Shown: piece after piece, positions 26,185-43,540 of the stretch
How positions within the stretch are numbered: position 1 is the stretch's first letter
Layout of the letters: each line of letters starts with the position of its first letter
The notes under the pieces: generated by a model
Databases searched by the model: none
The model's input: only the letters and a program-made list of their open reading frames with translations
Told to the model about the DNA's origin: nothing
Program-made: the position numbers and the translations under genes
From: Dehalococcoidia bacterium
GTDB taxonomy: Bacteria; Chloroflexota; Dehalococcoidia; GIF9; AB-539-J10
Reading direction: 5' to 3'
Assembly: GCA_030611085.1 (NCBI GenBank)
Contig: JAUWQI010000010.1
Span: 1-43,884, forward strand
DNA length: 43,884 nt

Positions 26185-27549
26185 TCAGGCTATCTTTGGT
26201 AGTTGAGCCAATGCCTCCTTTATCTTCTCATCGGGATACTCATAGTCTTGGAGCTTGCCCGAGAGATAGGCATCATAGGCAGCCATGTCAACATGTCCAT
26301 GTCCGCTATGAGCCAGCAATATGGTTTTTGACTCACCAGATTCCCTGCACTTGAGGGCTTCGTCAATAACCACCTTAATAGCATGGTTTGGCTCGGGAGC
26401 GCTGATAATGCCCTCAGTGCGAGCAAAGGTTATGCCAGCCTCAAAGGTGGCAAGTTGATGCTCAGCTCTAGCTTCAACTTGCCCCAATCTTTCCAAGTGG
26501 CATATGATAGGTGCCATTCCATGATAGCGAAGGCCCCCGGCATGGATTGGGGGTGGAATAAAACCATGCCCCAGGGTAAACATCTTAATTAAAGGGGTAA
26601 GGCCAGCTACATCGCCGAAGTCATAGGCATATGGCCCTTTGGTTACAGTAGGGCAGCTCGCCGGCTCGACATTGATGATACGCAAGTCTGGCTTTGTCCC
26701 ATCAATTTTATCTTTTACGAAGGGTAGATACAGACCGGCGAAGTTTGAGCCGCCGCCAATGCAGCCCACGATAATATCGGGATAGGCATCTGCTTTCTCC
26801 ATTAGCTTCTTTGCCTCCAGACCATTGACAGTTTGATGCAGCAGGACATGGTTAAGCACGCTGCCCAGAGCATAGTGGGTATCATCGCGAGACACGCAAT
26901 CCTCTACTGCCTCGCTGATAGCAAGCCCCAAGCTACCGGGACAATCGGGGTCTTTTGCCAGCATGTCTCGTCCTGCCTGGGTATCTGGGCTGGGGCTGGG
27001 AATACATTTAGCTCCCCAGGTCTCCATCATGACACGGCGGTAGGGTTTTTGGTGATAACTAATAGCGACCATGTAAACTTTAATCTCAATGCCAAAACAA
27101 GCACCGCCAAAAGATAGGGCGCTTCCCCACTGCCCAGCTCCGGTCTCGGTGGTAATTCGCTTTACTCTCTCTTGTTTGTTGTAATAAGCTTGAGCTACAG
27201 CAGTATTGGGCTTATGGCTACCAGGGGGGCTTGACCCCTCATATTTGTAGAAAATCTTGGCTGGCGTGTCCAAGGCTTTCTCCAACCTATGTGCCCGAAA
27301 CAAGGTTGTAGGTCTCCATAACCTGTAGATGTCCCGCACCTCTTCCGGTATTTCAATCCACCTCTCAGTGCTCACCTCTTGCTTGATTAATTCCATAGGA
27401 AATAAAGGAGTTAAGTCGTTGGGAGTCACTGGCTTCCCTGTGGCTGGGTGTATAACTGGTGGTAATGGCTCAGGCAAATCTGCCTGGATGTTATACCAAT
27501 ATCTTGGTATCTCTTCTTCGTCCAGAGTAAATTTTGTTCTCTTATCCAT
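26185..27549 (-). CDS. trpB2: Tryptophan synthase beta-like protein, TrpB2 type
   Basis: A 454-residue PLP enzyme. The N-terminal [11 protein letters not shown] and [14 protein letters not shown] are TrpB2 signatures. The PLP lysine is in [13 protein letters not shown], and the phosphate cup is in [11 protein letters not shown]. It is distinct from the TrpB1 in the trp operon (36848-38053). TrpB2 uses serine and indole but is thought not to pair with TrpA, serving indole salvage or related chemistry. It ends the oxidoreductase operon. A micro-ORF ends 13 nt upstream and overlaps its SD region. Confidence 0.92.
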
Positions 27550-27562
27550 TTTTATTCTCCTT

Positions 27563-27637
27563 TTATTTGTTAATTTGTGGGTTTAATAGATTATTCCTCT
27601 CGGCCCCAGAGGGCCAGTTCTGCAATACAATAAACAT
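27563..27637 (-). CDS. Micro-ORF upstream of trpB2 (candidate leader peptide, 24 aa)
   Basis: The strong SD GAAGGAGGG precedes ATG 27637 and a 24-residue frame starting [14 protein letters not shown] that stops with TAA at 27563-27565. The stop overlaps the SD of trpB2 (AAAGGAG), so the two can be translationally coupled. A second micro-ORF at 35947-35979 shares the SD, the TTGAATATG context and the pattern M-x-x-(V/I)-L-Q-x-W. The DNA can also form alternative short hairpins (GGCCC/GGGCC or CCTCT/AGAGG) after the Trp codon. Function is unknown; it may be a regulatory leader or a real peptide. Confidence 0.55.
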
Positions 27638-27657
27638 ATTCAACCCTCCTTCAAATG

Positions 27658-28218
27658 CTAAAGTCCAGTAACCATATTTCGCCCTTCCTCAAAGGCGCTC
27701 AAACTTTTCTTTAGTGCCTCTTCTTTGCCGACGAAAGATTTTTCTAGCTCTGAGTGGATAAGCTCAGCGGGGATGGAGTGGGTTGCCTCAACGAAGGCTC
27801 CCAGCAGCACCAAGTTGGCACTCTGGCTGGTGCCAGTGATATGAATGCTTGTTTCAATAGCTGGGAGCTTGATTAGTTGGATATCTTCTTTTTTTGATTT
27901 GGCTTGGAATCCAGCGCTTTCGATAATCATCATTCCACCAGGGCGCACCCGGCTTTCAAAGTCCTTAAACTGGGATGATTCGGCAATGATTATCACCTCA
28001 GCCTGAGATAATAGCGGGGAAGTTATTTCTTCATTGGAGTAGATAATAGTACACTCAACAAGCCCGCCTCGCTTGGAGATGGCATAAGAAGGGAACCAGG
28101 TTACATTTTTGTACTTGGTCACGGCTGCTGAAGCAAGCAGTAATCCAGCGGTAAGTATGCCACCACCGCCAAGCCCAGTCATTATTACTTCGTCTCTAGT
28201 AGGTAATTCTTGCCTCAT
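27658..28218 (-). CDS. 2-oxoacid:ferredoxin oxidoreductase, gamma subunit
   Basis: A 186-residue protein of the POR/KOR gamma family: G-L-G-G-G-G-I-L-T-A-G near the N-terminus (Rossmann-like), A-I-S-K-R-G-G-L-V-E-C-T-I near 48-60, and G-T-S-Q-S-A-N-L-V-L-L-G near 130. It completes a four-subunit enzyme with the next three genes upstream (beta, alpha, ferredoxin delta), which oxidises a 2-oxoacid to acyl-CoA and CO2 with reduced ferredoxin. The exact substrate (2-oxoglutarate, branched or aromatic 2-oxoacids) cannot be decided. Confidence 0.88.
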   Translation of the reverse strand: MRQELPTRDEVIMTGLGGGGILTAGLLLASAAVTKYKNVTWFPSYAISKRGGLVECTIIYSNEEITSPLLSQAEVIIIAESSQFKDFESRVRPGGMMIIESAGFQAKSKKEDIQLIKLPAIETSIHITGTSQSANLVLLGAFVEATHSIPAELIHSELEKSFVGKEEALKKSLSAFEEGRNMVTGL

Positions 28219-28235
28219 AATAATCCTTTCCTCTA

Positions 28236-29015
28236 CTACTCAATTTTATCAACATTCTTAAACTCACCCAGCGGAAACTCGGGTATCATCTTTTCCTCCA
28301 TCCACTTTAGGGAATCGATAGGTGATAGATGCCAGTTAGGTGGACAAGCGACAAGAATCTCGATGAAGCTGAAGCCAGCTTTGCTCATCTGTTTACCAAA
28401 AGCAACCTTTATATACTCTCTAGTCCGCTCGTAGTTGTAGGGATTGTTAACAGCGCCACGAGCAGAATAGGCGGTGCCTTTAAAAGTAGCTATCATTTCA
28501 GCAGCATGAATTGGGAATCCACTTTTGATTGCATCTCGTCCCTCGGGAGTGGTTGTAGTTTTCTGTCCCACCAAGCTAGTAGGCGCCATCTGCCCCCCGG
28601 TAGTCCCGTAAACGGCATTATTTAGCATCATGATGGTAATTTTCTCGGCGCGAGTTAACACTCCTAGCAAGGGGTCAGCACCAATGGCTAGTAATCCGCC
28701 ATCTCCTTGTACAGTAAATACAATATTATCTGGGTAAACATGCTTGATAGCAGTAGCCATATCAGGTGGGCGACCATGTGGGGTAAGTACGCTGTCTATG
28801 TCTAACATGCCAAGCAGGAAGGAATTGCAGCCTATATCGAAGACGCCTATCGTCTCATCGCCCATGCCCATCTCTTCTAAGGCTTCGGCAATAGCCCGAG
28901 CAACAAGTGGCTCATGGCAACCAGGGCAATAAACAAAGCCAGCCGTCTGTGGGATTAGTAATCTTGGTCTTCCCGTAACTCTTTCCCTAGTCATCGCTTC
29001 GGTCTTCTCAGTCAT
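28236..29015 (-). CDS. 2-oxoacid:ferredoxin oxidoreductase, beta subunit (TPP-binding)
   Basis: A 259-residue thiamine diphosphate subunit. The F-V-Y-C-P-G-C-H motif has the proximal cluster cysteines, and a further Cys lies in D-I-G-C-N-S. The TPP motif is G-D-G-G-L-L-A-I-G followed about 30 residues on by M-L-N-N-A-V-Y-G-T-T-G-G-Q. H-G-R-P-P-D-M-A-T-A-I-K precedes it. These match KorB/VorA-type beta subunits. It sits 17 nt from gamma and 27 nt from alpha. Confidence 0.9.
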   Translation of the reverse strand: MTEKTEAMTRERVTGRPRLLIPQTAGFVYCPGCHEPLVARAIAEALEEMGMGDETIGVFDIGCNSFLLGMLDIDSVLTPHGRPPDMATAIKHVYPDNIVFTVQGDGGLLAIGADPLLGVLTRAEKITIMMLNNAVYGTTGGQMAPTSLVGQKTTTTPEGRDAIKSGFPIHAAEMIATFKGTAYSARGAVNNPYNYERTREYIKVAFGKQMSKAGFSFIEILVACPPNWHLSPIDSLKWMEEKMIPEFPLGEFKNVDKIE

Positions 29016-29042
29016 AATGCTCTCCGGTTTCTTCTGTCGCGC

Positions 29043-30128
29043 TCATTTCATCACTTCGATTTTAGCTAAAATCTTATCTGGGAGAATCATGCCGCCATCG
29101 GTAGGCATGTGGCGGTCAAGTATATTTACCAAACCAACCTCAGTATGGCTCTCCACAGCTACTCTAACATCATCAACCAATTGTCCTAAAGAATCTTCCA
29201 CTGCTAAAAATCTACTGCCTTGGCTCGCCTTTTGCCTGAGTACTTCATAGGGAAAGGGCCAGGCAGTTATCAAACGAATTAACCCTGCCTTAATACCTTC
29301 AGTGCGTGCCATGTTAACAGCTTCTTTGGATACCCTAGCTGTGTAACCGTAAGCAACCAAAATCAGCTCAGCATCTTCTGTTTTGTAGCCTTCGTATCGC
29401 AACTCAGATTCCTGCATCCGTTTTATTTTCTGGTCTAAGTTCAGCAGCAGGGCTTGGTAGCTAGGGTAGCGAGCAAATAAATCCCCAGCATGCTCCACAA
29501 CGCGTCGTTTGCCATCTTTATGTCTCCCTTTACCTGTTACTGCCCAATCCTTGTCTGGCATGGGACCAAAGTCAATTTTCTTAACTTCAATCGTCTCGCG
29601 CAATCGCCCTATAATGGCATCTGATATAACTACCACAGGGTTGCGGTATTTATCAGCCAGATAGAAGGCAAGTTGAGTCAGGTCACAGCACTCCTGTGCA
29701 GAGGCAGGAGCAAGGACAATATTTCTATAATCGCCATGGCCTCCGCCCCTGGTGCACTGGAAATAATCCTGCTGAGCATGTCGAATAGGCCCTCCTCCAG
29801 GTCCTCCTCTCTGCACATCGATAACCACACACGGAAGTTCAGCATTAGCCATATCTGACATAGTTTCTTGCATAAGAGACCAGCCTGGACTTGAACTCGA
29901 TGTCATGGCTCTAATCCCTGTAGCGGCTGCCCCGTAAAGCATATTTATGGAGCCCAACTCGCTCTGCGTTTGCACGAAAATCCTCCCCATCTTGGGGAAC
30001 TCACGGGCGAACCACTGGGTTATTTCATTTTGGGGAGTTATAGGATAGCCGAAAAAGGCTTGGCAGTCAGCAACAGTTGCTCCCCGTGCAATAGCTTCAT
30101 TGCCCTCGATAAACATTCTCTCGCCCAT
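29043..30128 (-). CDS. 2-oxoacid:ferredoxin oxidoreductase, alpha subunit
   Basis: A 361-residue alpha subunit with the pyrimidine-binding TPP domain (F-F-G-Y-P-I-T-P-Q-N-E, E-L-G-S-I-N-M-L-Y-G-A-A-A-T-G, T-S-S-S-S-P-G-W-S-L-M-Q-E) and the transketolase-C-like domain (V-A-Y-G-Y-T-A-R). Both features are typical for KorA/VorB proteins. CoA is bound at the interface with beta. It is in the oxidoreductase operon between the ferredoxin and the beta subunit. Confidence 0.9.
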   Translation of the reverse strand: MGERMFIEGNEAIARGATVADCQAFFGYPITPQNEITQWFAREFPKMGRIFVQTQSELGSINMLYGAAATGIRAMTSSSSPGWSLMQETMSDMANAELPCVVIDVQRGGPGGGPIRHAQQDYFQCTRGGGHGDYRNIVLAPASAQECCDLTQLAFYLADKYRNPVVVISDAIIGRLRETIEVKKIDFGPMPDKDWAVTGKGRHKDGKRRVVEHAGDLFARYPSYQALLLNLDQKIKRMQESELRYEGYKTEDAELILVAYGYTARVSKEAVNMARTEGIKAGLIRLITAWPFPYEVLRQKASQGSRFLAVEDSLGQLVDDVRVAVESHTEVGLVNILDRHMPTDGGMILPDKILAKIEVMK

Positions 30129-30157
30129 ATCGTAACCTCCTCAATAAAACTGCTGGC

Positions 30158-30394
30158 TCATACTGACACCTCGCTGCTGAAGTTCAAATATACTTCGATA
30201 GCAGCTCCAGGGCAGAGCATGGCGCAAAACCCACAGGTATTGCATTCCTCGGGTTTAATGAAGGAGGGCAGCAGATACCCCTGGGGAGTGATTTTCTCTC
30301 CGGTGATCACAAGACATCCCCGGGGGCAGAACTTTACACAGTAACCGCATCCCTGGCATTCATTTTCATTAATAATTACTTCAGGTTTTACCAT
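30158..30394 (-). CDS. 2-oxoacid:ferredoxin oxidoreductase, delta subunit (2[4Fe-4S] ferredoxin)
   Basis: A 78-residue ferredoxin with two clusters, C-Q-G-C-G-Y-C-V-K-F-C-P near 15-26 and C-N-T-C-G-F-C-A-M-L-C-P near 51-62. The start at ATG 30394 (M-V-K-P-E-V-I-I) is chosen: it is 7 nt after the stop of the upstream Fe-S gene. An open frame back to 30541 would overlap that gene. It passes electrons from the catalytic subunits to soluble ferredoxin. Confidence 0.88.
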   Translation of the reverse strand: MVKPEVIINENECQGCGYCVKFCPRGCLVITGEKITPQGYLLPSFIKPEECNTCGFCAMLCPGAAIEVYLNFSSEVSV

Positions 30395-30401
30395 AGTTCT
30401 A

Positions 30402-31100
30402 TTAGCCTTGCATAGCACACAAAGCCCCAGTGGGGCAGGCTTTAGTGCAGGCGCTGCAAAATTTGCAGCCAGATTCCTTAAAGGAGCCGGCGATTGGCCC
30501 GATTTCAAGCCTGTCATTTCGAGTAACAAATCCAAGGGCACCTACGCCTATTAGCTCCTGGCATACCCTAACACAGAGGCCACAGGAGATACACAGGTTG
30601 TAGTCCATAAAAAGAGATTCCTCCGTGACCACTGGTAGATTGCGAGGCTTATAAGGGGGTAAACCATCGGGAATCCCGATGTAATCAGCCACCTTCCTTA
30701 ACTCACAGTCGTGAAAAAGGGAGCAACACCGCTCTGCAAGCGGCACCCCCTTTTTACATTCCTGTTGAGGCTCACACTGGTCTCGATACTCACAGCTTAA
30801 ACAAATATGTGGATGCTGGCTAAGGATGGCCCCAAGGAAACATCGTCGGCTCTCCTGGACCCGAGGCGTATTTGTGTGGACAACCATGCCATCTCTGGCT
30901 GGAGTAATGCACGCTGAGGGAAAACCCGGCATCCCTTCAATCTCTACGGCACAGAGACGACAGGAACCAAAAGGAGAGAGCTTGGGGTGGTGACACAGTG
31001 TGGGAATGTAAATGTCCGCCTTTTGCGCCGCCTCAAGTACGGTTATTCCCCTACTTGTTTTAATCTTAATGGCATCAATTTCTAGCGTGATTTTATCCAT
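30402..31100 (-). CDS. NuoG/HydA-N-terminal-like Fe-S protein
   Basis: A 232-residue protein carrying the Fe-S module seen at the N-terminus of NuoG, FdhA and [FeFe]-hydrogenases. The 2Fe-2S motif is C-x(11)-C-x2-C-x(13)-C (near 36-64), the His-Cys cluster H-P-H-I-C-L-S-C-x5-C, and two 4Fe-4S sites are C-I-S-C-G-L-C-V-R-V-C and C-K-F-C-S-A-C-T-K-A-C-P. No molybdopterin or H-cluster domain follows. It is coupled to the oxidoreductase genes (7 nt), so it may route electrons from or to that enzyme (inference). Its start is 4 nt after the acyl-CoA synthetase stop. Confidence 0.85.
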   Translation of the reverse strand: MDKITLEIDAIKIKTSRGITVLEAAQKADIYIPTLCHHPKLSPFGSCRLCAVEIEGMPGFPSACITPARDGMVVHTNTPRVQESRRCFLGAILSQHPHICLSCEYRDQCEPQQECKKGVPLAERCCSLFHDCELRKVADYIGIPDGLPPYKPRNLPVVTEESLFMDYNLCISCGLCVRVCQELIGVGALGFVTRNDRLEIGPIAGSFKESGCKFCSACTKACPTGALCAMQG

Positions 31101-31104
31101 GTCT

Positions 31105-32763
31105 TTAAGAACCTGAAATCTTAAGCTTACCCTCCGCCCACATATCTCGCAATGCCCTCTTCATGACTTTCATTGTGCCTGTCATAGGCAACTCATCCAT
31201 AAATATCACATAATCAGGGATCCACCATCCGGGAAACCTGGAACGCAGCGGCTTTAGTATATCTTCCTCTGACAGCTTACCTTTGTATTCCTCTTTCAGT
31301 GTGACGGTTGCCACTGGTCTCTCATCCCACTTGGGGTGAGGGACTCCGAAAACCGCTGCCTGACGAATTGCAGAGTTTTCCATGATAGCATTCTCTAAAT
31401 CTACTGAGGAAATCCATTCACCTCCTGACTTAATTATATCCTTGAGCCGGTCTAGAATATGAAGGTAGCCATCCTCCTCTACTATGGCTAGGTCTCCGGT
31501 ATGCAGCCACCCATCCCGGAATACTCCGCTAGTGGCTTCGGCATCATTGTAGTATTCTTCTGCTGGCCAAAGACCTTTGGTGATGACTTCCCCTATCTCC
31601 TTGCCATCCCAAGCCACATCTTTTCCGGTATCCACATTCACCACGCGCACTTCCACGCCTGGTATGGGTAAACCTTGATAAGTCATTCTCTCAAGATACT
31701 TTTCTCGGGACCATCCATCCATATGCTTTCGGTGAGAGGTAACAGTGGTGAAGTTAACACGCCCTTCAACCATGCCGTAAGTCCAATGGCACTTTATTCC
31801 CCTTTTATCCATCATCTCCATCAACGCTTTGTTGGGAGCTGTGGCCCCGGAGAAGACCTTCTTCAAACTGCTAAGGTTATATTTTCCCTTCTCCCACTCT
31901 TGCATAGCGAACATCACTACCGTGCTGGCTCCTTGGAAATAGTTTACCTTCTCTTTTTCTATCAATCTAAGCTGGTCATCGGGAGAGGGATGAGGCCCTG
32001 GCCACACTAGCTTGCCACCCGACATCGCTGTTGACCACTGGAAATTGTGTGAATTGACGTGGAAAAGATTTACTACAGGCATAACTGTGTCGTCTTCATG
32101 GAAGTCTTCTTGATCGGCACCACTGCAACCCAGGCAACGCAAGACAATGGAGCGAGGAGACCATCCTATTCCCTTGGGTCGTCCAGTAGTACCACCAGTG
32201 TAACACAAGACCGCCAGAGAATTTTCTGGTAAATCATCGGGAAAATCATAAGTGGTTGAAGCCTCGCGAAGTAGCTCCTCGTAGGAATAAAGAGGAGAAA
32301 GCTTCGTCTTGAGGAGCTTTTCCGCTGGAGTTAACACCACATAAAGCTCCACAGTTTTTAACTCTTCACTTATTTCCTCGAGGAGGGGAACGAGGTCCTC
32401 GTCAACGAACATTATCTTATCTTTGGAGTGATTGATGGCATAGACTAAATGCTCTCTACTATATCGTATATTGGTCGGATGAAATACTGCACCCATCATT
32501 GGCACGGTATAGGATAGTTCACCATGCCTGTGAGTATTCCAGGCGAAGGTAGCAACTTTATCACCCTGCTCTATGCCTAACTTCTCTAAAGCATTAGCCA
32601 GACGGCATATCCTTTCATATTCCTCATGCCAGGTACACCGGAACTCCTCACTCTGATGGTCGGGACTGTAGATGCCCTCCTTATCACCAAAGTACAAGAC
32701 AGCTCTCATCAAAAGAGGCCTCAGTTGCATCTGGTAAGTTTCTTTTACATATTCAATAGGCAT
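31105..32763 (-). CDS. Acyl-CoA synthetase (AMP-forming)
   Basis: A 552-residue ANL-superfamily enzyme: ATP-binding Y-T-G-G-T-T-G-R-P-K-G, the motif G-W-L-H-T-G-D-L-A and hinge D-R-L-K-D-I-I-K-S-G-G-E, and a catalytic lysine in M-T-G-T-M-K-V-M-K-R near the C-terminus. The Y-G-M-T-E motif reads Y-G-M-V-E. The layout resembles medium or long-chain fatty-acid or aryl-acid CoA ligases. As first gene of the oxidoreductase operon it may activate an acid that is linked to the oxidoreductase's acyl-CoA product. The specificity is unknown. Confidence 0.88.
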   Translation of the reverse strand: MPIEYVKETYQMQLRPLLMRAVLYFGDKEGIYSPDHQSEEFRCTWHEEYERICRLANALEKLGIEQGDKVATFAWNTHRHGELSYTVPMMGAVFHPTNIRYSREHLVYAINHSKDKIMFVDEDLVPLLEEISEELKTVELYVVLTPAEKLLKTKLSPLYSYEELLREASTTYDFPDDLPENSLAVLCYTGGTTGRPKGIGWSPRSIVLRCLGCSGADQEDFHEDDTVMPVVNLFHVNSHNFQWSTAMSGGKLVWPGPHPSPDDQLRLIEKEKVNYFQGASTVVMFAMQEWEKGKYNLSSLKKVFSGATAPNKALMEMMDKRGIKCHWTYGMVEGRVNFTTVTSHRKHMDGWSREKYLERMTYQGLPIPGVEVRVVNVDTGKDVAWDGKEIGEVITKGLWPAEEYYNDAEATSGVFRDGWLHTGDLAIVEEDGYLHILDRLKDIIKSGGEWISSVDLENAIMENSAIRQAAVFGVPHPKWDERPVATVTLKEEYKGKLSEEDILKPLRSRFPGWWIPDYVIFMDELPMTGTMKVMKRALRDMWAEGKLKISGS

Positions 32764-32857
32764 TTTCTTCCCCTTTCACTGTTCGTTCAGCACTTCTTTT
32801 CCGGCTCTCATATTCTGAGTATCTAAAGGGTGCTTTGTGCTGTTAAAAACCAAAACA

Positions 32858-32886
32858 ATTATGGTGATGTATCTGCACATTGTCAA
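32858..32886 (-). promoter_or_regulatory. Promoter for acyl-CoA synthetase operon
   Basis: On the minus strand a perfect TTGACA (32886-32881) and CATAAT (32863-32858) are spaced by 17 nt. It lies 95 nt upstream of the synthetase start. Confidence 0.65.
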
Positions 32887-32914
32887 TTTGCCCATTTTGA
32901 ACTCGTTTTCAGTT

Positions 32915-34216
32915 CTATCTCATAAGACCAGGAAGAAATAATGCGATTTGTGGAAAAGCTACCAATAGAGCCAAGGAAACTATACAAGCGGCAAAATAGT
33001 AACTTACACCTTTGAAGATGGTCTCAAGGGGCACATCTGGGGCTAAACCCTTGACAACATACACATTTATGCCTACTGGTGGGGTAATCGCCCCCATAGT
33101 TGTGGCCATCATTAACATTATCCCAACCCAGATGGGGTCATAACCCAAAGCCATGGCTAGTGGGAAGAAGACGGGGATGGTAACCACGAGAAACCCCAAT
33201 GCATCCATAAGGCAGCCACCAATGATATAGATGACCAATACTATTGCCAGAACAGCAACAGGGGGTACGGGGAGGGCAGATGCCCAATCCGCCAGGAAAA
33301 AGGGGAGCCTGGTCACTGCTAGGAAGCGGCCAAAAATCACTGCTCCAGTGACGAGAACCATAACCATGCAGGATGTGCGTAGCGTTTCCAGAGCGGCTTT
33401 AGTGAATCTTTGCCAGGTGAGTTCTCGCCTGACCAGGGCGATAATTATGGCACCAAAGGAGCCAGCAGCCCCGGCTTCGGTAGGGGTGAACCAGCCGGCA
33501 TAAAGACCACCTAAGACCAAACAAAATAAAACTAGCACTTCTATAACCCCAGGGAGAGCAGCTAGCTTTTCCTTGAAGCTTGTCTTTGGTCCCGCGGGAC
33601 CAAAGTGAGGATTCCGTCGGCAAAGGATGTAAATGGTGACCAGAAATAGGACACCCAGAACAATCCCAGGGAAAATACCGCCGAGGAAGAGCTTAGTTAT
33701 GGATTGTTCGGTTTGCAACCCGATAACGATGAGGATGACGCTGGGGGGAATAACCACACCCAATGTGCCGCCGGTGGCAACAGTGCCTGTACTCAACACC
33801 GGGTCATAATTGTATTTCTCCATCTGGGGCAGGGCTACCGTGCCCATAGTAGCTGCCGTAGCTGAATTGGAACCACAGATAGCAGCAAAAAACTCATCAG
33901 CCACTATTGTAGCCATAGCTATCCCCCCACGCATCTGCCCTACCCACTTATATGCCGTATCATAGAGCCGCACGCTTATCCCGGAGTTGAGGCAAATGTA
34001 ACCCATGAAAATAAAGAGAGGGATGACACTAAGACCATAGGATGAGAACTGTCCCCAGATATCTGAGCTTAATATGTGAAGTGCTGCCTGCGGCGAAACA
34101 AAATAGCTCATGCCAAGAAAGCCAGCCAGCGCCATAGCAAAACCCACTGGCAGCCTCAGAAACATCAGCGTGAGCATGCCAATGATGCCAATGATAGCAA
34201 TTATGGTAGGACTCAT
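32915..34216 (-). CDS. dctM: TRAP transporter large permease, DctM-like
   Basis: A 433-residue membrane protein with about 12 hydrophobic segments: the large permease of tripartite ATP-independent periplasmic transporters, driven by an ion gradient. L-R-L-P-V-G-F-A-M-A, I-C-G-S-N-S-A-T-A-A-T-M-G, G-T-L-G-V-V-I-P-P-S, F-T-P-T-E-A-G and I-T-P-P-V-G-I-N are family motifs. Its first four nucleotides overlap the dctQ stop (ATGA-type overlap), so the two are coupled. Confidence 0.92.
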   Translation of the reverse strand: MSPTIIAIIGIIGMLTLMFLRLPVGFAMALAGFLGMSYFVSPQAALHILSSDIWGQFSSYGLSVIPLFIFMGYICLNSGISVRLYDTAYKWVGQMRGGIAMATIVADEFFAAICGSNSATAATMGTVALPQMEKYNYDPVLSTGTVATGGTLGVVIPPSVILIVIGLQTEQSITKLFLGGIFPGIVLGVLFLVTIYILCRRNPHFGPAGPKTSFKEKLAALPGVIEVLVLFCLVLGGLYAGWFTPTEAGAAGSFGAIIIALVRRELTWQRFTKAALETLRTSCMVMVLVTGAVIFGRFLAVTRLPFFLADWASALPVPPVAVLAIVLVIYIIGGCLMDALGFLVVTIPVFFPLAMALGYDPIWVGIMLMMATTMGAITPPVGINVYVVKGLAPDVPLETIFKGVSYYFAACIVSLALLVAFPQIALFLPGLMR

Positions 34217-34698
34217 CGCTTCACTGCCTCAGTCAGCGACTTCAAGAAATCCACCAGCAATGCTAAGCACAGGAGGGCGCAGCCAATGGCCACCGCATAT
34301 ATGAAAGGGAAAAAGATTATATGTAGCGATTCGGATACCGACCCCATTTCCCAATAGTGGGTAGCGAGTTTGATGATTTGCCAGGTCGCCATTCCAAATA
34401 GAACCATGCCGGCAAAGAACATAATGCTATCAATAATTGCTTGAACCCGCGGTCGAAATCGGGATACCATTATCTCTACGCAGGTGTGACCTCGCTGCCT
34501 CTGAGTATAGCCTAAAGCGAAGGCAACCACTAAAGCTGCTAGCCACCCAATAACTTCGGTAGTGCCAGCGAAAGGCACCCAGACCTTCCGCATAATCATG
34601 TTGACCACAGTGAAGAGCATCATTGTTACCAAAATGCCGCTAGCTATCCAACTGAGCCACCGATTTAAAGTGCTGATAATCTTTTCTAAATAAGCCAT
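34213..34698 (-). CDS. dctQ: TRAP transporter small permease, DctQ-like
   Basis: A 161-residue membrane protein with four predicted helices (near 13-35, 47-66, 85-105, 128-150). The pattern R-W-L-S-W-I-A-S-G-I-L-V, M-R-K-V-W-V-P-F-A-G-T-T-E-V-I and R-G-H-T-C-V-E-I fits DctQ. It stabilises the large permease. It is separated from dctP by a 143-nt gap that contains an inverted repeat. Confidence 0.9.
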   Translation of the reverse strand: MAYLEKIISTLNRWLSWIASGILVTMMLFTVVNMIMRKVWVPFAGTTEVIGWLAALVVAFALGYTQRQRGHTCVEIMVSRFRPRVQAIIDSIMFFAGMVLFGMATWQIIKLATHYWEMGSVSESLHIIFFPFIYAVAIGCALLCLALLVDFLKSLTEAVKR

Positions 34699-34748
34699 TT
34701 TTACACCATAAACATTTCAGGCTACGCAACCATCTAAAACCTGCTACC

Positions 34749-34807
34749 CTTTATAGAGGGTGCCCTTGGTAAATTGCGCCACAGACTAATGGACACCCTC
34801 TATAGGT
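34749..34807 (-). promoter_or_regulatory. Inverted repeat between dctP and dctQ
   Basis: Arms tttatagagggtgccc (34750-34765) and ggacaccctctatag (34791-34805) form a near-perfect stem with a 25-nt loop in the leader between dctP and dctQM. Without a clear U tract it resembles an RNA-processing or stabilising hairpin, which could raise binding-protein level relative to the permeases (inference). Confidence 0.45.
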
Positions 34808-34841
34808 CTGGAATCTATATGGAACCCACGGCTTGTGTGGC

Positions 34842-35897
34842 TTACTTGCTGTATTTTGCACAAAGCTCAGCTAGCCTATCCAGGTATTCATTCCCGGGTA
34901 GCCCTTTGGCCGCCATATCCGCTAGATACTTATTAACTATGGGCTTGAGCAGTTCATCCCATTTAGCCTTCTCTTCCGAGGAAATGGTGATGATTTCAAA
35001 GCCGCATTCCTCCTTCGCCCACTTTATAGACTCCTCAGTATGCTTATCCATATATTCGCCGGTCCACACTGATTGCTCCAAACTAAGGTCATTCATAACC
35101 TTTTTCACATCTGCAGGTAGGGAATCCCACTTGTCTTTGTTCATTACTACGACGAATAAGCAACCTATACATGGCGACCAATCAGTAGCATAATGGCAAG
35201 TCTCAGCATATTTGAAGTCGAGAAGTGTCTCGAGAGAGGAGACATAGCCCTTGACCACTCCCTTGGCTAGGGCTTCAGGCACCTCAGATTGAGGCATGCC
35301 TACCGGGGCTGCTCCCAGTGCTTTCATAATTGGCACCACTGCTCCTGAGGAGCGTAGCTCTAAACCTCTAAGGTCTTCCAGTTCTCGCACCGGGTCTATG
35401 GTTACAATGTGGTTTGGTCCGGCGGTATACATGTAGAGCACTTTGAAATCAGCTAGCGATGCTGGGTTGAACTCGTTATAAGCCTCCCACAGGACCCGGC
35501 TAGCCACTGCTGTATTGGGGAACTTGATAGCGGGGTTCTCCATGCCAAGCATCAGAGAGAAACGACCTGGCTCGTAGGAGAGGCAGGAACAGCCTATATC
35601 AGCCACACCGGCGTTCACTCCGTCAAACATGGCTGGGGCGGTGAGCAAGGTTCCGCCAGGGAAGGTATCGATTTCAACCTTGCCATTAGTGCGATTCTCT
35701 ACCTTATCTACCCAGTCCTCCATCGACACACAAGGGAAAGTAGGTGCAGGTGGGAAGTGGGCAAAGGTCAACTTTATGGGTTCGCCCGTGGTTGGCGGTG
35801 TCGCCGGTTTTCCACACCCGCTGACCGCTAGCAACGTTATCGCTATTATTACTATGACTATCGATTCTACAAACTTCAGCGTCTTTTTAGTTTTCAT
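34842..35897 (-). CDS. dctP: TRAP transporter substrate-binding protein, DctP-like lipoprotein
   Basis: A 351-residue extracytoplasmic solute receptor. The signal peptide's hydrophobic core is about 12-24, with lipobox A-V-S-G-C (Cys28). Mature features include I-K-L-T-F-A-H-F-P-P, T-F-P-G-G-T-L-L, L-R-S-S-G-A-V-V-P-I-M-K-A-L-G-A-A-P-V-G-M-P and W-D-S-L-P-A-D-V-K-K-V. The R-x-S-G segment corresponds to the usual carboxylate-binding region (family: R-x-P or R-x-x-G). The ligand is probably an organic acid. A micro-ORF lies in its leader. Confidence 0.9.
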   Translation of the reverse strand: MKTKKTLKFVESIVIVIIAITLLAVSGCGKPATPPTTGEPIKLTFAHFPPAPTFPCVSMEDWVDKVENRTNGKVEIDTFPGGTLLTAPAMFDGVNAGVADIGCSCLSYEPGRFSLMLGMENPAIKFPNTAVASRVLWEAYNEFNPASLADFKVLYMYTAGPNHIVTIDPVRELEDLRGLELRSSGAVVPIMKALGAAPVGMPQSEVPEALAKGVVKGYVSSLETLLDFKYAETCHYATDWSPCIGCLFVVVMNKDKWDSLPADVKKVMNDLSLEQSVWTGEYMDKHTEESIKWAKEECGFEIITISSEEKAKWDELLKPIVNKYLADMAAKGLPGNEYLDRLAELCAKYSK

Positions 35898-35946
35898 TTA
35901 ACATCTCCTTGTTTTGTTGTTTCTAATCTTTGTATTTTGGCGCCGA

Positions 35947-35979
35947 CTAGCAGCACCAGGTCTGTAGTATAGTGAGCAT
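35947..35979 (-). CDS. Micro-ORF upstream of dctP (candidate leader peptide, 10 aa)
   Basis: AAAGGAGG lies 7 nt before ATG 35979; the 10-residue frame M-L-T-I-L-Q-T-W-C-C stops at TAG 35947. The block GGAGGTTTGAATATG plus codons for x-x-I-L-Q-x-W parallels the 27563-27637 micro-ORF, and differences between the two are mainly conservative (F/L, V/I, N/T; Leu as TTG versus CTA). The gap to dctP is about 50 nt with a second SD. Function is unknown. Confidence 0.5.
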   Translation of the reverse strand: MLTILQTWCC

Positions 35980-35990
35980 ATTCAAACCTC

Positions 35991-36025
35991 CTTTATTGAG
36001 ATTGCTTCGATTTGCTCGCAATGAC
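35991..36025. repeat. Dispersed repeat upstream of micro-ORF and dctP
   Basis: ctttattgagattgcttcg is followed by atttgctcgcaatgac, a palindromic 'attgcttcg...cgcaatgac' unit. The same ctttattgagattgcttcg word begins the copy at 39466. It sits 17 nt after the trpA stop. Confidence 0.7.
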
Positions 36026-36041
36026 ATTGATTTGAATTTTT

Positions 36042-36851
36042 CTATGATTCATCGAGAGCCTCTCTCAATTGTCTGGCAAAACTTTGAACTAAGCTTAAAG
36101 ATTTGTCTTCCTCCATAAGCTGAATGATGCGACTGCCTACAATTACCCCGTTGACTATTTTGCCCATTTGCCTGGCTTGTTGTGGGGTAGATATTCCAAA
36201 TCCCAGACAAAGGGGATGAAATTGCTTCCCCTTCGCTGCGCTCAGGGTCGCAGTGGTGCTTCTCACCTTGGTCACAAATGCCGCTAAGCCTGGAGGTAAT
36301 TTTTCTCTGGCTCCGGTGACTCCCATCACTGAAACCAGATATATGAAGCCACGAGATTTTTGGGCTACAAGCTGAATGCGTTCTTCAGTGCTAGTGGGGG
36401 TCAGGAGGTAGATGAGATCAATGCCATGATCTTGCGTGATAAGCTCTAAGTCATAGCCTTCCTCTGGAGGTAGGTCAGGAATAATCAGGCCGTCAATTCC
36501 GGATCTGGCACAAGCATCACAAAATTCATCAAGACCATAGTTAAAAATTGGATTGAAATAGCTCATAAATATTAGAGGGACTTTAACCTGCTGATTCAAT
36601 TCCTTGGCTACTTCAAGGCAAATTTTCGGAGTGACTCCGTTTTGTAAGGCACGAAAACTTGCCTTTTGTATGGTGATACCATCTGCTATAGGGTCAGAGA
36701 AAGGGATGCCTAGCTCTATCAAATCGCATCCACTTTCAGCGAGGAGAGGGACTACCCTCAAGGTTGCCTCGATGCTGGGATAACCTACAGTGATATAAGG
36801 AATAAAAGCTGTGTGATTGGGCTGGGCAAAAGCAGAGGCAATACGGCTCAC
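36042..36851 (-). CDS. trpA: Tryptophan synthase alpha chain
   Basis: A 269-residue TIM barrel that splits indole-3-glycerol phosphate into indole and G3[14 protein letters not shown] (catalytic Glu), P-D-L-P-P-E-E (catalytic Asp) and L-G-F-G-I-S-T-P are intact. Residues about 199-212 ([14 protein letters not shown]) have no counterpart in other TrpA and coincide with a dispersed repeat at 36221-36252. They fall in the loop before the strand L-C-L-G-F-G, so the enzyme may still fold. Overlaps trpB by 4 nt. Confidence 0.93.
36221..36252 (-). repeat. Dispersed repeat fragment in frame within trpA
   Basis: attgcttccccttcgctgcg then ctcagggtcgca resembles the repeat words of 39466 (gattgcttcg, ccttcacttcgttcaggg). 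It adds about 13 residues without breaking trpA. Confidence 0.6.
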
Positions 36852-39457: not shown

Positions 39458-39463
39458 CTTTCT

Positions 39464-40540
39464 TTATTGAGATTGCTTCGCTTCTCCTTCACTTCGTTCA
39501 GGGCTTCGGCTCACCGCAATGACGTTACTCAGGCTCTGACTGAACTCGATTAGCTCATCAAGTTTGGCTTGGGCCCTTCCGCTGTCAATTACCTCTTTAG
39601 CAATGCGAGTGCCTTCTTTAAGGTTTGATGCTTGGTTACCAGCAATCAAGACAGCAGCAGCATTTATAACTACTATATTTCGTCTGGCTCCCACCTCTCC
39701 GTTCAATATACTGCGCAGTATCTCACTATTTTGCTTCGCTGTTTCTCCTTTAATCTCTGCCATACTCGCTCTGGCAAACCCAAAATCTTCAGGGGAAACT
39801 TTATAAGGTGGCGATATCCTATCTTGGGTAACATCCCACACTAGCGATTCTCCACTAATTGTGATTTCATCCATGCCATCCATGCCATGCACTATTAGAG
39901 AATGCTTTGTGCCTAAACGCTGGAGGACAGAGGCTACCTTCTCTCCTAATTCCTTAGAAGGAACACCAATGACCTGAAACTCAGCATGAGCGGGATTAGT
40001 CAAGGGACCAAGGATGTTAAACACGGTGCGGATTCCAATTTCACGCCGAGGCGCAGCGGCATACTTCATTGATGGGTGAAAGGTGGGGGCAAACATAAAG
40101 CCAATGCCCACCTTCTCCAAACATTGAGCTACCGCTTCGGCTCCAAGGTCAATTCTTACCCCCAATGCCTCAAGGACATCGGCACTGCCGCAATGACTGG
40201 ACATTGCCCGATTGCCATGCTTGGCTACCTTAAGTCCGGCACCAGCGGCAACGAAAGCCGCCGTTGTGGAGATATTAAAAGTGAAGGAGCCATCACCACC
40301 AGTGCCACAGGTATCAATCACGGGCGGGGTAGCCATGACAGGTATTGCTTTAGCTCGCATGACACTCACTAGCCCAGCAATCTCATCTACCGTTTCCCCT
40401 TCAATGCGAAGTGCGGTGACAAATGCGCCAAATTGAGCTGGTGTTGCCTCGCCACTCATTATCTCCTCCATTACCTCGGCTGCTTGCTCCATATTCAGCG
40501 AATTGCCACAGACGAGGGTTTCAATGGCTTCCTTGATCAT
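39464..40540 (-). CDS. trpD: Anthranilate phosphoribosyltransferase
   Basis: A 358-residue enzyme transferring phosphoribose from PRPP to anthranilate. The PRPP loop C-G-T-G-G-D-G-S, N-I-S-T-T-A-A-F, K-H-G-N-R-A-M-S-S-x-C-G-S-A-D and G-P-L-T-N-P are intact. The C-terminal about 17 residues ([17 protein letters not shown]) are encoded by a dispersed repeat, making the protein longer than usual. It overlaps the unknown membrane protein gene by 4 nt. Confidence 0.94.
   Translation of the reverse strand: MIKEAIETLVCGNSLNMEQAAEVMEEIMSGEATPAQFGAFVTALRIEGETVDEIAGLVSVMRAKAIPVMATPPVIDTCGTGGDGSFTFNISTTAAFVAAGAGLKVAKHGNRAMSSHCGSADVLEALGVRIDLGAEAVAQCLEKVGIGFMFAPTFHPSMKYAAAPRREIGIRTVFNILGPLTNPAHAEFQVIGVPSKELGEKVASVLQRLGTKHSLIVHGMDGMDEITISGESLVWDVTQDRISPPYKVSPEDFGFARASMAEIKGETAKQNSEILRSILNGEVGARRNIVVINAAAVLIAGNQASNLKEGTRIAKEVIDSGRAQAKLDELIEFSQSLSNVIAVSRSPERSEGEAKQSQ
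39466..39524. repeat. Dispersed repeat forming the 3' end of trpD
   Basis: ctttattgagattgcttcg, ctccttcacttcgttcagg, gcttcggctcaccgcaatgac. It shares its opening with 35991 and its middle with 13509-13659. The trpD stop codon lies inside it. Confidence 0.7.
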
Positions 40541-43200: not shown

Positions 43201-43540
43201 ATCGCTCCTCGATAAATAAAAAGCCTCTCGCCCAAGGGGCGAGAGGCTTAACCTTCGCGGTGCCACCCTTTTTAGTCAGTCCTCAAAATTATAGGAGGAG
43301 GTCTTGACCATCTCTTTTCCAGGTACGGAAGTAAATCTCCCTTTTTACCTCGATACCCTGAGCTTTTAACGGTGCCCTTCCGGCAAAGCCTACTCGCGCT
43401 TTACAAGCTTTCGGTTTGCAGCTCCCAGGTCCATTCCAACCTTGCGCAAGTATCGGCTCACACCTTACCCGACTCTCTGAACTCCGCCTCGAGCTGTACT
43501 AATCCTGTTCTCAGCCTTTCCCTTATTTAATTTTTAACCC
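43201..43540 (-). promoter_or_regulatory. T-box riboswitch leader, tRNA-Trp specific (predicted)
   Basis: On the minus strand the leader carries the universal T-box word AGGGTGGCACCGCG (43269-43256), followed by a terminator hairpin. Stem I elements are visible: GGATTAGTA, CAGAGAG (AG bulge) and GTGTGAGCC. The specifier loop is read as GGAATGGACC with TGG (43433-43431), the Trp codon. Uncharged tRNA-Trp binding stabilises an antiterminator and switches on the trp operon. The specifier assignment is by eye and fits the operon content. Confidence 0.88.
43218..43249 (-). terminator. T-box intrinsic terminator upstream of trpE
   Basis: Stem gcctctcgccc/gggcgagaggc with a short AAG-type loop, followed on the minus strand by TTTTTATTT. 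It competes with the antiterminator that includes the T-box sequence. Confidence 0.88.

Follow-up and report, generated by a model that had tools for sequence, protein, structure and literature searches.

The stretch of DNA analysed here, which we call the window, comprises 43,884 nucleotides of a Dehalococcoidia bacterium (contig JAUWQI010000010.1, assembly GCA_030611085.1). On its minus strand a trp operon (trpE, 43266, to trpA, 36042) is followed by a TRAP transporter (35897-32915), an AMP-forming ligase, ferredoxin-like proteins, a 2-oxoacid:ferredoxin oxidoreductase and trpB2 (27549-26185), the named closest relatives of which are mostly from Dehalococcoidia MAGs. Two micro-ORFs are embedded in this order, one flanked by the gene for the oxidoreductase gamma subunit and trpB2, the other placed between trpA and dctP. 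The features are as follows:

26185..27549, minus strand: trpB2 (TrpB-like PLP enzyme), the gene behind micro-ORF 1 (NCBIfam NF009057, 725 bits; TIGR01415, 637 bits)
27563..27637, minus strand: micro-ORF 1, 24 aa, starting MFIVLQNW (read from the sequence)
27601..27616, minus strand: hairpin of micro-ORF 1, TGGCCC(TCTG)GGGCCG, beginning at the Trp codon (pairs counted in the aligned set; about -10 kcal/mol)
27614-27616, minus strand: Trp codon TGG of micro-ORF 1, in frame in all orthologous hairpin leaders
27644..27652, minus strand: Shine-Dalgarno sequence (SD) of micro-ORF 1, GAAGGAGGG, then TTGAAT before the ATG (read from the sequence)
34842..35897, minus strand: dctP, TRAP solute-binding protein, the first gene behind micro-ORF 2 (NF037995, 104 bits)
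35938..35958, minus strand: hairpin of micro-ORF 2, TGGTGCTG(CTAGT)CGGCGCCA, opening at the Trp codon, with the stop TAG in the loop
35947..35979, minus strand: micro-ORF 2, the sister copy, MLTILQTWCC (read from the sequence; model R1, 52.6 bits, this copy having been in the R1 training set)
35956-35958, minus strand: Trp codon of micro-ORF 2 (read from the sequence)
35987..35994, minus strand: SD of micro-ORF 2, AAAGGAGG, then TTTGAAT before the ATG (read from the sequence)
36042..36851, minus strand: trpA, directly upstream of micro-ORF 2 (translation reads by eye as tryptophan synthase alpha; the adjoining upstream trpB is TIGR00263)
43232..43521, minus strand: T-box with specifier UGG (GAA-UGG-ACC), upstream of trpE, with a leader that contains no micro-ORF (RF00230, 89.7 bits, gathering threshold 93)

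The T-box scores just under the Rfam gathering threshold, and a default search of the window therefore misses it. The cassette between trpA and trpB2 (27658-35897) could serve the salvage of aryl acids into Trp; its oxidoreductase is a closer match to general 2-oxoacid families than to indolepyruvate families. A 22-nt repeat, CTTTATTGAGATTGCTTCG(A/C)TT, occurs in two copies of 95% identity, at 35991-36012, right before micro-ORF 2, and at 39462-39483, within the coding end of trpD, and looks dispersed.

Micro-ORF 1 (ATG TTT ATT GTA TTG CAG AAC TGG CCC TCT GGG GCC GAG AGG AAT AAT CTA TTA AAC CCA CAA ATT AAC AAA TAA) is, as the initial annotation of this DNA had it, a frame of 24 residues behind a strong SD upstream of trpB2. 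Its stop abuts the trpB2 SD (TAA-AAGGAG), and trpB2 starts 13 nt past that stop. The second copy, 8.3 kb away (ATG CTC ACT ATA CTA CAG ACC TGG TGC TGC TAG), does share the SD and start context and begins MLTILQTW, as had also been noted, and is 10 rather than 24 residues long. The two copies are 79% identical over 38 nt. Allowing up to three mismatches, the string of SD and start is found at only these two places in the window (shuffles averaged 0.37 and reached two in 5/100), and in the window's own genome the pattern M-x-x-[IV]-L-Q-x-W behind an SD is likewise confined to the two micro-ORFs; a third match to the peptide pattern in that genome contains an in-frame stop and lacks an SD. Overlooked in the initial annotation were the T-box of the trp operon and the fact that both TGG codons open a GC hairpin.

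The arrangement of SD, ATG, short ORF and TGG-opening hairpin is widespread in relatives, as read in 70 regions upstream of trpB2. A typical leader consists of a strong SD, an ATG, 4-8 codons and a TGG at the hairpin base, with peptides that include MFITLQLW, MPISLQMW, MLALLRTW, MELNMW, MTAYMW, MSTMSWKW, MIILSRTW and MREAGFRW. More distant families of Dehalococcoidia carry MHSRYWPAGP, MARISRYWPPWA and one leader with a TTG start, and the leader also occurs in some records nominally assigned, by their deposited labels, to other phyla. A third copy, MFIVLQTWRWPCQRV (MFIVLQTW) with the hairpin GCGCTGGC(CTT)GCCAGCGC, lies in a genome of the same family (G005), where a T-box precedes it and an ABC_sub_bind gene follows. 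A fourth, shorter micro-ORF, MNFIFTW, with a hairpin of its own, stands in that genome before the gene following the ABC_sub_bind gene. This fourth micro-ORF (L007 1-340, G005:C113, minus strand) has the hairpin GGCGCACT(TTA)AGTGCGCT, and lies between ABC substrate-binding and permease-like genes; downstream of it, a stem resembling a terminator, GAATCCTCCC/GGGAGGATTC, runs into a T-rich tail.

It had been suggested that frames of this kind be sought in related genomes upstream of both trpB2 and TRAP dctP genes. Many Dehalococcoidia have them before trpB2, and there the Trp codon is in frame; before the relatives' other dctP genes, no such leader ORF was found. The peptide pattern M-x-x-[IV]-L-Q-x-W itself did not generalize: across relatives it gave mostly chance matches inside genes, the one in G005 alone being real and alone having an SD.

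The relation between start codon and hairpin was examined in 165 regions upstream of trpB2, among which 39 distinct ones hold an SD-ATG together with a TGG-opening hairpin. In all 39 the TGG is in frame with the ATG, without the frame having been imposed, at distances of 15, 18, 21 or 24 nt only; control windows gave 10 matches in 1,854, with frames split 6/2/2. A scan that accepted every hairpin located 12-30 nt past an SD-ATG yielded 44 leaders. The stem base carries TGG in 39 of them; for the remaining five the scan took a neighbouring, out-of-frame ATG, and the stem begins with TGG even so. A literal pattern blind to both gene and frame (SD, ATG, TGGCCC-4-GGGCC) matched 15 times in 15 of 100 whole genomes, always before trpB2 and always in frame, while its reversed control gave a few matches over the same genomes. 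It should be noted that these counts overstate the number of events, because the hairpin letters of the pattern come from the same set and related genomes are not independent; the leaders nonetheless span several families. Matches of model R1 below E = 1e-3 likewise all precede trpB2, except micro-ORF 2 and a trpX-like gene in G005. Two weaker R1 matches (E = 0.0036 and 0.01) were unconvincing on inspection. In 301 genomes of the phylum the pattern produced, besides the window, only chance-like matches (18 genomes, with a similar number in the control), and the single match of that scan with a genuine look, MKIMAW in G429 and G441, seems to lie antisense within a gene. Taken as sequence comparisons, these data support the view that the small ORF is a conserved and presumably translated leader linked to tryptophan genes.

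Selection on the peptide as such, which the initial annotation had proposed, is a different matter. With the Trp codon set aside, all close pairs together give a dN/dS of 0.55, as against 0.96 and 1.03 when the frame is shifted. Independent pairs give 0.61, and among them synonymous changes are not significantly in excess (p = 0.11). These values lend the proposal weak support: the Trp codon and frame are kept, and the remaining residues and the length vary. Synonymous changes at Ser and Thr codons are seen in the group MSTMSW-x-W. One stem pair changes from C-G to G-C in five of 14 sequences with the stem kept, the pairs being counted on a 14-sequence alignment because two alignments of all leaders misplaced the 3' arm of the hairpin. 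No peptide family model matched the leader peptides. As far as sequences can tell, what is selected is the Trp codon and the reading frame, with the other residues weakly constrained, and such weak selection does not make an arrest-peptide family.

Beyond the reading frame, the leaders are variable. The Trp codon is single in 30/39, and the distance from it to the stop ranges from 1 to 28 codons, the stop in some leaders lying one codon past the Trp. From the stop to the start of the gene there are 33-86 nt in 33/39. In G095 (L209) no hairpin leader lies upstream of trpB2; an ORF, MPGLPAQEINAKPRLNWD, with Trp as its last residue but one, stops there a few bases short of an in-frame ATG, itself upstream of the start taken for trpB2; this ORF could be similar to rtpLP of Bacillus subtilis (discussed below). 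In other lineages the Trp codon is missing or reduced. In genus g9 the place of the leader is taken by AAGGAGG and, after a short spacer, ATG-TAG; aligned species share these elements, whereas their flanks mostly differ. Start-stop forms after a strong SD in g9 and G006 (loci L060, L065, L071, L076, L084, L100, L107, L109-L111, L115 and L116) read ATG TAG, and also GTG TAG or ATG TAC TAA. Genus g91 has one-codon ORFs without a Trp codon (ATG TTT TGA, ATG AAT TGA and GTG ACC TGA at L205, L213 and L217), and g45 genomes have MDWG or MNWG at the leader place. Two g4 genomes keep the ORF (MFNIKTW and MFNIETW) and lack the 3' arm of the hairpin.

The T-boxes read in relatives precede trpE, trpB2 or the G005 transporter. 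Those of trpE run directly into the gene with no micro-ORF, and those of trpB2 usually lead into one. Many of the relatives' trpB2 leaders have a T-box just upstream, and neither window copy has one directly upstream; the UGG specifier was read for the window's T-box only. In G011 the leader ATG lies 2 nt past the trpA stop, with no T-box. Since the leader ORF thus also occurs without a T-box, behind trpA, it travels with trpB2 and not with the T-box. The link to dctP is positional: micro-ORF 2 sits at the 3' end of trpA, where relatives have the trpB2 leader. As the order in relatives is trpA-leader-trpB2, the TRAP/ligase/oxidoreductase cassette probably entered between these two genes in the lineage of the window, with a leader now on each side, and a duplication may be the reason for the two copies. 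Of the proposed leader family linked to indole/acid metabolism and transport, the association with tryptophan genes endures and that with dctP is not general.

The B. subtilis anti-TRAP gene rtpA, with its leader rtpLP, is a known case in which a Trp T-box and a Trp leader ORF are paired (PMC2311275; Chen & Yanofsky 2003/2004, to the extent cited in PMC11255114). There a Trp T-box is followed by a short ORF with Trp codons before a gene of Trp regulation, giving two readings of tRNA-Trp charging, a layout that many of the relatives' trpB2 leaders, with their upstream T-box, would share. However, rtpLP has three Trp codons and its complete translation prevents that of rtpA, whereas the trpB2 leaders usually have a single Trp codon. 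The block in rtpLP arises because the ribosome at the leader stop covers the rtpA SD, and the Trp codons of rtpLP are not known to lie at a hairpin. The trpB2 leaders differ in their conserved hairpin at the Trp codon, in their target, trpB2, and in the position of their stop, which in 33/39 is too far from the gene for a ribosome to cover its SD; the window copies, moreover, have no T-box of their own. Micro-ORF 1, at 13 nt and with its stop abutting the trpB2 SD, would fit, and blocking as in rtpLP is possible at this copy.

In the 1:2 pause hairpin of trpL, the Trp codon lies in the 5' arm and the stop in or near the loop, and the trpB2 leaders share this layout. Classical trp attenuators comprise trpL of enterobacteria and those of Corynebacterium and Streptomyces (PMC1262725). 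All 39 leaders have the Trp-codon ORF behind an SD that characterizes trpL; unlike trpL, none of the 39 has an intrinsic terminator with a U-tract before the structural gene (on average 1.7 T in the 8 nt past the hairpin). The Rfam Trp leader models matched neither the window nor the leaders, for which only tRNA and T-box models reached gathering thresholds and sub-threshold matches were to unrelated families. T-boxes before trpE and trpB-like genes of Dehalococcoides have been published (PMC2494555). They concern the same genes and the same amino acid, and a T-box is directly upstream of many leaders; the text of that paper makes no mention of leader peptides. The leader ORF differs from these T-boxes in also occurring without one and in being absent behind the trpE T-boxes read. 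TnaC, to which micro-ORF 1 was initially compared, resembles the leaders in being short with one important Trp, yet they have no constant Trp-to-stop spacing, few residues before the Trp and no conservation of the other residues; attenuator-type Trp leaders and rtpLP are the more apt comparison. A search of Rfam, Pfam, NCBIfam and the literature, covering few subscription papers, returned no description of a trpB2 leader. It therefore appears to be a variant of Trp leader ORF not described before, outside the trpL, rtpLP and TnaC families, and on our best reading the closest analogy in logic would be the B. subtilis T-box with rtpLP.

The leaders share a conserved architecture and reading frame, a Trp codon at the base of the hairpin and linkage to trpB2 and T-boxes. 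From these features, we suggest that this is probably a tryptophan leader ORF that senses Trp supply through the UGG at the hairpin base. The ribosome would load at the strong SD, translate 5-8 codons and meet the UGG at the very start of the GC hairpin. Following the accepted logic of attenuators, it would wait there and hold the 5' arm open if charged tRNA-Trp were scarce; when tRNA-Trp is plentiful it would run on, stop in or soon after the hairpin and leave, and the hairpin would close and lower trpB2 expression. Sensing by stalling is proposed, and for the sign of the regulation induction by Trp starvation, as with the T-box. The same control may extend to the window's TRAP cassette behind micro-ORF 2 and to the G005 ABC transporter behind its T-box. 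Weighing against this reading are the Trp-less ORFs of g9 and g91, the two g4 genomes whose ORF has no 3' hairpin arm, the single Trp codon of most leaders, the failure to find an alternative structure or a terminator, and the shared ancestry among leaders.

Several rival readings set against a tryptophan-sensing leader place the function elsewhere. A structural RNA, such as a processing or stability hairpin or a protein site, with an incidental reading frame, would fit the hairpin, which is the strongest feature, and the covariation at one pair; nevertheless, the Trp codon is in frame in 39/39, the length between ATG and TGG changes only in multiples of three and the g4 genomes retain the ORF without the hairpin, making this reading very improbable. 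We put a shade less faith in a TnaC-type arrest leader whose nascent peptide would respond to free tryptophan or indole: a short leader with a single critical Trp before a TrpB-like enzyme, and the synonymous Ser and Thr codon changes of the MSTMSW-x-W group, speak for it, but merely 5-8 residues precede the Trp, the others are poorly conserved and the Trp-to-stop distance varies. Least credible of all is that nothing more than a local DNA repeat lies behind the two window copies. Their identity, and a cassette that appears inserted between trpA and trpB2, such that one duplication may have made both, are compatible with it, but orthologous single copies before trpB2 in many genomes refute it as a full explanation, in keeping with what had been argued initially.

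The alternative that deserves most attention, although we consider it unlikely, is a constitutive ribosome-loading or reinitiation ORF, which feeds ribosomes to trpB2 or holds them off and whose Trp codon is no sensor. Genera g9 and g91 have, instead of the Trp version, strong SDs followed by start-stop or one-codon ORFs, the trpA stop of G011 is 2 nt before the leader ATG, and reinitiation at leader ORFs has been proposed to be common in bacteria (PMC4833913). Against this, the TGG at the hairpin base is invariant wherever the hairpin exists, and the stop-to-start distance is mostly 33-86 nt, as compared with the reinitiation peak at 10-16 nt in PMC4833913. As the Trp codon is missing or reduced in g9, g91 and g45, ribosome loading may be an older or shared function, and the lineages that have start-stop ORFs only argue against a universal role of Trp.

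How a Trp-sensing leader would act on trpB2 was considered for 32 folded leaders, in which the mean accessibility of the downstream SD is 0.26 both in the free RNA and with a ribosome parked on the UGG, giving no sign of SD sequestration of the ermC type; no alternative structure was found in the leaders. Left as candidates for the output would be Rho acting together with a pause of RNA polymerase, or an obstacle to ribosomes travelling onward from the leader or trpA. We tentatively entertain, as a possibility and not as our expectation, a Trp-sensing leader with a new output, in which the waiting ribosome would act through the hairpin as a pause or roadblock, without terminator or SD sequestration, layered on the T-box, and with the start-stop ORFs of some genera keeping only ribosome loading.

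To our knowledge, tandem sensing of tRNA-Trp by a T-box and a leader ORF has one well-studied case, the Bacillus anti-TRAP operon. A similar pairing appears in Chloroflexota, in uncultured anaerobes, and there on trpB2 and not on the biosynthetic trpE. The start-stop versions raise the question of what minimal ORFs do, and the SD-ATG-n-TGG-hairpin arrangement is a compact signature for finding Trp-regulated transporters. If our reading is true, trpB2 would be controlled apart from Trp biosynthesis.
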